Part shown: positions 28,879 through 31,821 of the stretch, piece after piece
Position numbering within the stretch: the stretch's first letter is position 1
Layout: every line of letters begins with the position of its first letter
Origin: Halosimplex rubrum
GTDB taxonomy: Archaea > Halobacteriota > Halobacteria > Halobacteriales > Haloarculaceae
Direction: 5' to 3'
NCBI RefSeq assembly: GCF_013415885.1
Contig: NZ_CP058910.1
Span: 1,984,001-2,048,000, forward strand
DNA: 64,000 bases
Made by a program: the position numbers and the translations under genes
Notes under the pieces: generated by a model
The model's database searches: none
The model's input: only the letters and a program-made list of their open reading frames with translations
Told to the model about the DNA's origin: nothing

Positions 28879-29061
28879 TCAGCCGTCGAACTCGACCAGG
28901 CTCTCCAGCGGCACGAGACGGTGCTGGATCTCGGGTTTCGTGTAGCCGGAGGACTCTTCGGAGACGCCCGCGGTGTAGACGGTGACCTTCTGCTGGAGCA
29001 CGTGCGGTTCCCCGTTGTTGTTCCGGACGACCTCCACCGACCGCCAGGCCTCGTCCTGCAT
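28879..29061 (-). CDS. Residual 60-residue frame of the IS-split gene
   Basis: Begins MQDEAWRSVEVVRNNNGEPH and ends in VPLESLVEFDG. It is the C-terminal 60 residues of the interrupted gene, open from an internal ATG preceded by GGTGAGGG. The conserved look of this part (beta strands, KVTVYTAGVSEESSGYTKPE) suggests it carries the main fold, so it may remain functional if transcribed from the insertion element or from a new promoter. Confidence 0.5.
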   Translation of the reverse strand: MQDEAWRSVEVVRNNNGEPHVLQQKVTVYTAGVSEESSGYTKPEIQHRLVPLESLVEFDG

Positions 29062-29063
29062 AC

Positions 29064-29134
29064 CCTCACCAGACGGGCCGTCGTTGACATCCTCCCCGCG
29101 CTGAAGCGCGAGGATTCCTCCGTTGGGGGTTCGG
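29064..29134 (-). ncRNA. Predicted 3' part of the TnpB omega RNA with guide
   Basis: In characterised IS605 elements the TnpB guide RNA spans the tnpB 3' end and right end, and the guide is the flanking DNA just past the element. Here that puts the scaffold end at 29084 and a guide of about 20 bases at 29064-29083 (minus strand, CGACGGCCCGTCTGGTGAGG). The upstream boundary is not known and probably lies inside tnpB. Placement follows from the element boundary; expression is inferred. Confidence 0.5.
29094..29113 (-). repeat. IS605 right-end hairpin
   Basis: An eight-pair stem with TTCA loop, bound by TnpA. GAAT lies directly 5' (29114-29117, minus strand) and the cleavage site TCAA six bases 3' of the stem. 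It is identical to the left-end hairpin. Confidence 0.85.
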
Positions 29135-30412
29135 CTATGCCGATTCCACGGAGGCAACTTGCGGGTTTGTGCGCACTTCTTTGGGACTTTCGTGAGGGTG
29201 TGGTTTCCCCGACCAGTCGTGGTCGTCCCACTCGAATCGCACGGGCCGTGCCATCGGCCTGACTTCCGTATCACTGTGTTCTCGAAGGAACGTCTCTGAC
29301 GCCGTGAGGTCGGCGTGCCCCTCGAAGCCACACGGACACGTCAGCGTATCCCCGTGGCGAACCGTCTCCTCGTGGTCGCCACATTTGGGACACGTCTGAC
29401 TCGTCCACGCTTCTGACTCGGCTTCAAGGCTGATTCCGTACTCCTCACAGACACACGCGAGACGGTGGATGAACTTCTTGAACGCCCAGAAGTTGTGCGT
29501 CTTCTCGTTCACCCTGACCGACCAGTGCGTTTCCAGCACATCGGTCAAATCGCCCACGTACACCGTCGATACGCCCTCCTCGTACAGCCGTTCAACGAGG
29601 TCGCGCACTAGCGCGTTCTGTGCGTGGTCACGGCGTTTTGTCCGCTGTCGGTACAGCCGTCGAATCCGTTTGGAACTATAGCGTCTCTCACGTAGTTTCG
29701 ACTGTAGGCGGGCGATTTCGTCAGTCGTTTCACGGAACCGTCCGAACAACTCCCGACCGTCGTAGAGGTACTGGGAACCAGTAGTCGTGGAACAGGCAAC
29801 GAGATTGTTTGCGCCAACATCAAGGGCGGCTTCGTGAGAAGCCAGTGGTGAATCCAGTCGAGAATCAGGCACGGTGACTGGTTGAAAAGCCCTGAACGTG
29901 TCGCTCACCTCGTCGTACTCAAGTTCCAGACGACCTTGTTCGCCGTCCCACTTCGGGTTGCCTCGGACTCCGAGGCGGAGTCGTTCGTGGTAGCCGAGTC
30001 CGTATTCGTCTTTCAGTTCTTGCCCGACGGGGATTTCGAGACGCGACCGCTTGCCCCACTGAATCGTGTACTGGTTGCACCGAATATAGGTACGGAGTTC
30101 GTGTCCGTCCTCTTCGTTGCCCCAGTACGACGGTGGGTTAGCGCCCTCGCCTTTCTCTTTGAGGGCGAAGAACGACCGCCACGCTTCGCTGTTCTTGCGT
30201 GTGACCTGTTGGACGGTTGCGCTTCCGACGACGCCGTTGTAGCGTCCACGGTATTCGGAAGTGTCCCACACGTCGCCGTCACCGAAGTAGTTCTGACGGC
30301 GTTCGTAGGTCAGTTCGTTCCACAGAGAGGCGGACGCATCGAGTAGCCGTAGAAGGCACTCTTTGTCGTTTTCGGTCTGTGGCACCACCTCGAAGGTGTT
30401 GACTCGCTTCAT
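29135..30412 (-). CDS. tnpB: TnpB, RuvC-like RNA-guided nuclease family protein of IS605
   Basis: A 425-residue TnpB. The N-terminal WED/REC part is about residues 1-190. RuvC-I Asp198 lies in [10 protein letters not shown]. The RuvC-II segment reads [12 protein letters not shown], with Gly287 where the catalytic Glu normally stands. The bridge helix-like [13 protein letters not shown] comes before it. A zinc finger has C341, C344, C359 and C361, and RuvC-III Asp368 lies in GHADLTASE. Start overlaps the tnpA stop by four bases. TnpB proteins cut DNA with an omega RNA and help keep the element at its site; the missing Glu leaves activity in doubt. Confidence 0.9.
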
Positions 30413-30789
30413 TCGTCGCCACCTTCCTGTTCAGCGATGTATCGTTCAACAGCGTCTTTCGAGGTGCTTCCTGCTGTCCCGACATAGTAGGAACGAGTCC
30501 ACTTCACGCGGTCGTCGTACCGCTGATTGTACTTCCGCGCCGAGATGCCCTTGACCCAGTTGACGATGAGTGAGGGGGCGTTCTTGGGTGGACTCCCGAT
30601 GAATAGGTGTACGTGGTCAGGCATGACCTCGGACTCGGCCAGTTCGAGGTCTTTGTCCTCACAGATTTCCGCAAAGATGGTTTCGAGACGTTCCTTTGTC
30701 TTCCCCGTCAAGTGCGAACGCCGATATTTCGGCACGAACACTATGTGGTAGTAGAGTTCGTATTTCGCGTGACGGGTACTCTTTACCAT
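30409..30789 (-). CDS. tnpA: TnpA, Y1 HUH transposase of IS605
   Basis: A 126-residue single-strand DNA transposase. The metal-binding HUH motif is PDHVHLFIG (His near residues 59 and 61). The catalytic tyrosine is in the helix segment [14 protein letters not shown] near residue 104. N-terminal [15 protein letters not shown] is the usual first strand. It acts as a dimer on the two hairpins and the tetranucleotide cleavage sites. Length is slightly below the usual 130-155 but all core parts are present. An AT-rich promoter region lies upstream inside the left end (near 30800-30815). Confidence 0.93.
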
Positions 30790-30882
30790 CTATGTATACT
30801 ATTGTGACCGAATGGCTTAACGATTGCGTTGGAACCCCGTCTATGCCGTAGTCGGTGGTTGAATACTATTGGTTGGCTTCAT

Positions 30883-30902
30883 CCCCGCGCTGAAGCGCGA
30901 GG
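30883..30902 (-). repeat. IS605 left-end hairpin
   Basis: Same stem-loop as the right end. AAAG lies directly 5' (30903-30906, minus strand), and the target TTAC lies 14 bases further upstream, just outside the element. Confidence 0.85.
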
Positions 30903-30963
30903 CTTTCGCCTTGAATTTCCGTAAATCGCTTTGGCGCCGAGCGGTCGTCCCCTGCCGACCCTG

Positions 30964-31821
30964 TCACTCCGCCGGCGGGCGTAGCGTGAGTCGCCGAAGC
31001 TCCCGGCCGGCGTCGTAGAACGCTCGCGCGAGTGTCTCCTCGTCGGCGAGGGCGCCCTCGCCGACCGTCCGGACGGGGACCGTCGCCTCCAGCGGAGCGG
31101 TCCCGAACGGATACGGGGCGACCCGGTACTCGCCGTCAGCGACCCGCGTCGGCGAGAGCGTCGCGTCGTCCCCGTCGGTCGTCGGGACGGCCCCGATCTC
31201 GCCGTAGCCGGGAGGCGTATCCGTGATACAGAACGACAGCGAGAGGGCGTCCCACGCCTGCAGCCGTCGGTAGTCCGCCCACAGGCGACCGTCGTATCCC
31301 TCGGGAACTCGCCTCGCGTGGTGGAGCGACCGCAGGAGGTCGCGGTCCGCGACCGTCACGGGGGCCGGCCCGTCGCGCTCGCCGTGGAGGAGCGCCCCGA
31401 GCAGGCGTCGCTGGCGCTCCGCCTCGCGGTCGACGAACTCGCGGTACTCCGGGGGCGTCTCGGGCCACTCCGGCGAGAGGCCGTACCGCCGGTTTCGCAG
31501 GCCGGCGCCGTGCATGGAGACGAGCAGACCGGCGTAGGCGTCCATCCCGGCGACGGCGTCGATCCCTTCGTCGTAGAGGCCGATCCACGGCTCGGCGGGC
31601 ATCTCGCGGAAGTCGACCGGCTCGCCGTCGGTGAGGTGCGGGCGGCGGTCGTAGGCCCGCCAGCCCGTGTCGTGAGCGTACGCCGCGAGCGCGAGCGAGT
31701 CGAAGGGGTCGGGGCGGTCGACCGACTCGCCTCCCCAGGCGTCGGCGAACTGGCCCGCGAGGGCGGCGTGGTCGGGCTGGGTGACGAACTGATAGCCGTC
31801 GGCCGTCTCGGCGACGATCAC
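30964..31821 (-). CDS. DUF3891 family protein
   Basis: A 285-residue cytoplasmic protein beginning MIVAETADGYQFVTQPDHAALAG. The conserved AAYAHDTGWRAYDR (His-Asp near residue 50) and, later, VSMHGAGLRN, LLRSLHHARRVPEGYDGRLW and ALSLSFC suggest an HD-domain-like helical fold, as in the DUF3891 family. No biochemical role is known to me. Its TGA overlaps the GTG of the small gene later split by the IS605 element, so the two formed an operon. ATG 31821 is the first in-frame start. Confidence 0.82.
   Translation of the reverse strand: MIVAETADGYQFVTQPDHAALAGQFADAWGGESVDRPDPFDSLALAAYAHDTGWRAYDRRPHLTDGEPVDFREMPAEPWIGLYDEGIDAVAGMDAYAGLLVSMHGAGLRNRRYGLSPEWPETPPEYREFVDREAERQRRLLGALLHGERDGPAPVTVADRDLLRSLHHARRVPEGYDGRLWADYRRLQAWDALSLSFCITDTPPGYGEIGAVPTTDGDDATLSPTRVADGEYRVAPYPFGTAPLEATVPVRTVGEGALADEETLARAFYDAGRELRRLTLRPPAE

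Follow-up and report, generated by a model that had tools for sequence, protein, structure and literature searches.

An IS608-type insertion sequence in the putative promoter region of a conserved small gene of Halosimplex rubrum

The cleavage and guide sequences of the insertion sequence IS608 (ISHp608) of Helicobacter pylori are given in PMC5934647 as TTAC, TCAA, AAAG and GAAT, with a preference of its transposase TnpA for C at the +1 base, and the donor is reported to be sealed scarlessly upon excision of IS608-type elements (PMC5934647, PMC8612924). For ISDra2, PMC8612924 describes an omegaRNA whose guide is the flank beside the right end of the element, and proposes that TnpB restores the element at empty sites. 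According to PMC12558985, haloarchaea produce omegaRNAs at the 3' end of tnpB beside the right end of the element, and TnpB clades with a rearranged RuvC-II motif have been published, one RII-r5 ortholog of which was active (PMC10278001). Here, a 64,000 nucleotide stretch of Halosimplex rubrum DNA (the window; NZ_CP058910.1, positions 1,984,001 to 2,048,000 of the forward strand) was analysed around a complete IS200/IS605 (IS608-type) insertion sequence of 1837 bp. The element occupies window positions 29084..30920 and separates a small conserved gene (28879..29061) from an intact gene encoding a DUF3891 protein (30964..31821), all features of the window described below being on the reverse strand. 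Comparison with homologues suggests that the small gene is most likely not split by the element, its frame being whole from the ATG at 29061-29059, and we assign a probability of roughly 0.85 to the reading that this coding frame is whole and that the insertion lies in the TATA box or promoter region of the gene.

The element has in common with IS608 a Y1 transposase, subterminal hairpins and all four short sequences. TTAC (30921..30924), the target and left cleavage sequence, is located in the flank just outside the left end and is followed by C at this insertion, while the right cleavage sequence TCAA (29084..29087) forms the right end. The left guide AAAG (30903..30906) and the right guide GAAT (29114..29117), named after the motifs in PMC5934647, are each found at the foot of one of two hairpins whose 21 nucleotide cores (30882..30902 at the left end and 29093..29113 at the right end) are identical. 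These signals had been pointed out in an initial annotation of the window and were all confirmed in the sequence. The element differs from IS608 in its distant protein sequence and its archaeal host. A closer match is an ISHhu1-family-annotated element on the Halobacterium hubeiense plasmid NZ_LN831303.1, which was the best plasmid match. It is 91.9% identical at the nucleotide level along the full 1837 bp and has annotated tnpA and tnpB genes; it differs in host genus, in insertion site and by about 8% sequence divergence.

The extent of the element was established from both of its ends, from an identical second copy and from relatives with the same ends. Thirty-two loci were aligned, 16 of which held copies readable at both ends, including the two in this genome. 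TTAC preceded the left end in 14 of the 16 (the exceptions being TCAC at L027 and TTCC at L028), and TCAA formed the right end in all 16, which is partly by construction as alignments were required to reach the right end. A 13-mer of the right end was present in 110 of 146 genomes of the family, as compared to two matches in total for a reversed control pattern. The boundary signals of the element thus exceed chance. Given the mechanism described in PMC5934647 and PMC8612924, removal of the element would be expected to restore the sequence prior to insertion without a scar.

The initial annotation had further proposed that the element splits a gene of 84 codons translationally coupled to DUF3891, and that excision would switch this gene on. 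The arithmetic behind this proposal holds: once 29084-30920 is removed, 47 and 205 bases come together as an open frame of 252 bases or 84 codons, which ends at 28879 and starts with a GTG that overlaps the TGA of the DUF3891 gene. While the IS608-type element with exact ends stood up to comparison, the splitting of a gene did not. Homologues of the small gene were found in seven of eight same-genus genomes including that of the window, the single miss being a genome that is 71% complete, in 54 of 146 family genomes with the own genome counted, and at 25 named loci. A total of 78 homologue rows, 53 of them distinct, were examined with the window excluded; the Halosimplex carlsbadense, pelagicum, salinum and aquaticum loci duplicate same-genus genomes. 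In 50 of the 53 distinct loci an ATG was found at the residue equal to window position 29061. The remaining three were a short frame with ACG at this place (L115), a frame apparently broken near the start (L120) and a match to the C-terminal half only (L122). This start codon evidence carries the odds for the gene model. The joined protein had been expected to recur after DUF3891 in relatives, and the homologues found are instead proteins of about 60 residues that start at the internal ATG, which largely speaks against it.

The sequence upstream of the ATG was compared in the same alignment. Among the six same-genus relatives, L011, L014 and L015 have their nearest in-frame stop two codons before the ATG and L012 has it 21 codons before, so that the frame is closed within 23 codons in four of six. 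The distance to the stop is 101 codons in L016 and 322 in L013, and the long open frame in these two relatives is a point in favour of an extended gene and against a start at the ATG; for L013 and L016 the argument for the shorter gene model therefore relies on the start codon and on the upstream box described below. Likeness among the open upstream frames was judged within the same-genus alignment. Over all 53 distinct loci, the 23 codons before the start of the small gene contain an in-frame stop in 29 and are free of one in 24, and since the latter are equally open over this distance the open joined frame of the window is not beyond chance. The closest neighbourhood is that of L014, where a DUF3891 gene (85% identical) immediately precedes and shares the GTGA overlap. 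There, the GTG is 67 nucleotides from the ATG and out of frame with it, with a stop of the ATG frame in between.

An operon of the small gene with DUF3891, which the initial annotation had assumed, was not borne out. Of the six same-genus relatives, L014 and L016 have DUF3891 as the next gene upstream. A search of longer flanks found it within 3 kb upstream at five of 27 loci, all Halosimplex, one of them being the L016 place; for L012 and L014 this search reached 1.5 kb. The small gene is accordingly not part of a fixed DUF3891 operon. A split 84-codon gene, to which the peptides MTGSAGDDRSAPKRF and TDGPSGEG would be particular, is on this evidence very improbable, and would be conceivable only if the lineage of the window alone had evolved an N-terminal extension.

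The protein read from the ATG at 29061 has 60 residues. M1 is common to the seven same-genus proteins, the other six of which are 78-90% identical to that of the window, and identity to 18 aligned sequences from outside the genus is 57-74% from M1 on. The family follows the pattern M-D-EAWRSV...GEPHVLQQ...GYTKP...HRLVP. No match to the protein was found in Pfam or NCBIfam. Sequence matches in the PDB (best E value 0.0003) were confined to stretches of about 12 residues in designed TIM barrels and do not inform on function, and the predicted fold, with a mean predicted local distance difference test score (pLDDT) of 75, had no Foldseek match at an E value of 0.001 or better. The small protein is a complete, conserved family of 60 residues, and the insertion affects its upstream region rather than its frame.

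This upstream region holds a conserved box. In all six same-genus relatives CAAAGCGATTTATCG or a similar sequence is located about 28 nucleotides before the ATG, the variants being one A fewer in L013, TTTGT in L015 and ATATAT in L016. The corresponding sequence of the window is CAAAGCGATTTAC, and the element starts directly after the C of TTAC within it (cut at TTAC|C). The upstream part of the split box (30921..30933) is now parted from the gene, and what is left of the former promoter or leader next to the gene are the 22 nucleotides between element and ATG (29062..29083). On the other side, 39 nucleotides separate the DUF3891 stop codon from TTAC. Among 50 homologues, the stretch between -36 and -25 has an AT fraction of at least 0.5 at 10 of its 12 positions, in DNA for which the window averages 69% GC. 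PMC4983044 gives CGAAA as the word of the transcription factor B recognition element and TTWT as the TATA word in Haloferax, and reports that 72% of protein-coding transcripts are leaderless. The box fits a TATA box in position, because its distance from the ATG suits leaderless transcription as described there. An AT-rich box common to relatives some 25-35 nucleotides ahead of the start, as looked for in a haloarchaeal promoter, is thus present.

Several observations weigh against this interpretation of the box. We infer its identity as a promoter from conservation and position, and its match to the Haloferax consensus of PMC4983044 is imperfect: TTWT fits the TTAT found in four of six relatives, with TTGT in L015 and ATAT in L016, and CAAA is found where CGAAA would be expected. 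A high AT content is not confined to the box, several isolated positions elsewhere (for example -58, -44, -12 and -6) having an AT fraction of at least 0.5 as well. In the window itself, TTAC does not fit TTWT and, with the element taken out, box and ATG are two bases closer together than in L011 and L014. On account of both differences the promoter may already have been weaker before the insertion.

The effect of the insertion on expression is less certain than its place. With the element present, a word scan found no TTWT, TTTA or TATA in the 400 nucleotides upstream of the ATG, and the small gene is therefore probably without a promoter of its own; the absence of such words from 400 GC-rich bases is weakly informative. 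In the mechanism that we propose, a complete IS608-type element, close to those annotated as ISHhu1, would have transposed recently into a TTAC between the small gene and DUF3891, parting the TATA box region from the gene and leaving its frame whole. The native promoter would then no longer drive the small gene, which would be silent or transcribed only through read-through from tnpB and the putative omegaRNA, both of which run in the same direction. We lean slightly towards such a loss of native promoter function. The insertion may alternatively have been neutral, with useful expression of the small gene kept up by this read-through or by an unrecognised promoter and with no real consequence of the insertion. 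The intact coding frame and the direction of tnpB and the putative omegaRNA into the small gene are in keeping with this, as is a Shine-Dalgarno-like GGTGA directly before the ATG, from which translation of a read-through message may persist, which also counts against an effect of promoter loss. Both full copies of the element in this genome, moreover, sit where proteins stay whole. As the TATA-like box of the relatives is now 1.8 kb from the gene, and none of the words scanned for replaces it within 400 nucleotides, we hold a neutral insertion as a tentative alternative, somewhat less probable than promoter loss.

The initial annotation had also suggested that the element may act as an on/off switch. 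Placed in the promoter region, it would do so if precise excision and reinsertion turned the small gene on and off within a population, and the scarless sealing of donors reported for IS608-type elements (PMC5934647, PMC8612924) would allow it: TnpA could excise the element exactly and thereby restore the upstream region. The flanks of relatives hold no trace of a past visit, however. At the place of TTAC in the window the six same-genus relatives read TTAT (four), TTGT (L015) and ATAT (L016), so that TTAC is peculiar to the lineage of the window among the relatives compared, which did not include a further strain of the same species. A search of the assembly for the empty joint returned the occupied site only at up to two mismatches, two unrelated places at three mismatches and one control match; the joint is thus absent elsewhere in the assembly, where a consensus would hide a minority allele. 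The TnpB model of PMC8612924 also speaks against a free switch, because TnpB would cut the resealed site and favour the return of the element. Nothing found in these sequence comparisons points to a switch, and we regard it as improbable.

The element encodes the two proteins expected of an IS608-type insertion sequence, and their genes overlap by four bases. tnpA (30409..30789) encodes a Y1 HUH transposase of 126 residues with a DHVH motif at 58-61 and Tyr117 as the candidate catalytic residue. It matched Pfam Y1_Tnp with an E value of 2.7e-38, NCBIfam NF033573 with 151.6 bits (cut-off 55) and the solved structure of ISHp608 TnpA with an E value of 1.4e-15. tnpB (29135..30412) encodes a protein of 425 residues of the RNA-guided endonuclease family, which matched the NCBIfam model guided_TnpB with 151.5 bits (cut-off 100). 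Alignment with solved TnpB and Cas12f chains placed Gly287 at the position of the RuvC-II Glu. Glycine was found at this position in 40 of 42 haloarchaeal TnpB rows that cover it, the row of the window included, and the two exceptions (L035 and L036) are disrupted rows. Over 37 rows, conservation was 0.95 for D198 and D368, the two aspartates assigned to the catalytic D-E-D of RuvC, and likewise for E323 and E334, and 0.92 for E330, and it is possible, judging from the alignment, that the catalytic Glu has been relocated, with E323, E330 and E334 as candidates. The glycine sets this TnpB apart from that of ISDra2 and agrees with the RuvC-II-rearranged clades of PMC10278001.

A region resembling haloarchaeal sotRNAs or omegaRNAs (29093..29293) was found at the right end with the Rfam model sot0042. 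The match is weak, with 25.5 bits against a gathering score of 88 and an E value of 0.00045, yet it spans the whole model. Like the sotRNAs or omegaRNAs of Halobacterium salinarum, it is located where tnpB terminates, at the right end of the element; it differs from them in scoring under the Rfam gathering threshold and is a putative RNA here. As in ISDra2 (PMC8612924), a TnpB-family protein would thus be encoded beside a right end with a putative omegaRNA and the flank as guide. By analogy with the position described for ISDra2, the putative guide would be the first approximately 16 nucleotides of the leader of the small gene, and TnpB guided by this leader would tend to cut empty sites and so favour retention of the element. 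Taken one step further, the locus could be imagined as a reversible promoter plug with an RNA-guided memory, in which the inserted element disconnects the TATA box, the guide is the own leader of the gene, and TnpB binds or cuts the restored promoter upon excision and holds the gene off. We consider this still a little more doubtful than the simple switch.

General targeting of TATA boxes by the family was tried as an explanation for the position of the element and rejected. Sixty distinct right-end flanks, a sample of the fetched loci rather than all right ends in the family, were inspected for an ATG that opens a reading frame of at least 60 residues, counted by eye with GTG starts left out. 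Such an ATG was located 18-28 nucleotides downstream in three flanks (L001, which is the site in the window, L043 and L133) and 29-39 nucleotides downstream in five (L026, L044, L139, L146 and L150, with L139 and L146 as near-identical sites), and hence no enrichment was observed.

The second full copy of the element in this genome (L002, G000:C1:106235-108071) is identical to the first, which indicates recent movement; two identical copies imply past movement only. It is inserted at the TAA stop codon of a gene on the opposite strand, where the TCAA end supplies an in-frame TGA. The empty GCG TAA thereby becomes GCT TGA in the occupied state, and the protein is unchanged. This gene has 53 codons and presumably encodes a protein resembling ribosomal protein eL40. 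With the first copy in a probable promoter region and the second replacing a stop codon, the pair exemplifies how an insertion sequence dependent on TTAC can find places in a GC-rich archaeal genome that leave proteins intact, and we regard the insertion as ordinary insertion sequence biology with one neat position.

Stop codons at other insertions were surveyed in 61 right-end flanks. Forty-eight opposite-strand frames of at least 100 codons reach the junction, and all of these were scanned against Pfam. Matches were obtained for 12 of the 21 frames with two bases left over (L017, L024, L025, L026, L028, L029, L038, L039, L131, L137, L142 and L158), for four of the 14 with one base left over (L022, L031 and the near-identical L139 and L146) and for none of the 13 with none left over. 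The geometry in which the element supplies the stop (T|TGA) is therefore found in up to 13 of the 61 flanks, L002 included. Of the seven left flanks read among these 13, those of L002, L017, L025, L026, L029 and L039 have TTAC, and that of L028 has TTCC, which argues against a stop at that site. If the target was TTAC, G is replaced by T at the third base of the last codon in the 13, a change that is synonymous in nine and turns Glu into Asp in four.

Targeting of stop codons was nevertheless set aside. When the 49 TTAC sites of the window were placed on a rough model of 46 genes based on open reading frames, five coincided with stop codons of the opposite strand and 26 fell between genes, for which reason no special targeting need be assumed. 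The excess at insertions is small (13/61 vs 5/49) and could be due to selection against the disruption of genes. A narrow literature search, which says little, found no paper joining IS605, TTAC insertion sites and stop codons. Apart from the two full copies, this genome holds two partial relatives of the element, L003 (G000:C1:932737-933244, 93% identity) and L004 (2716864-2717769, 73%), which are possibly remnants of older insertions.

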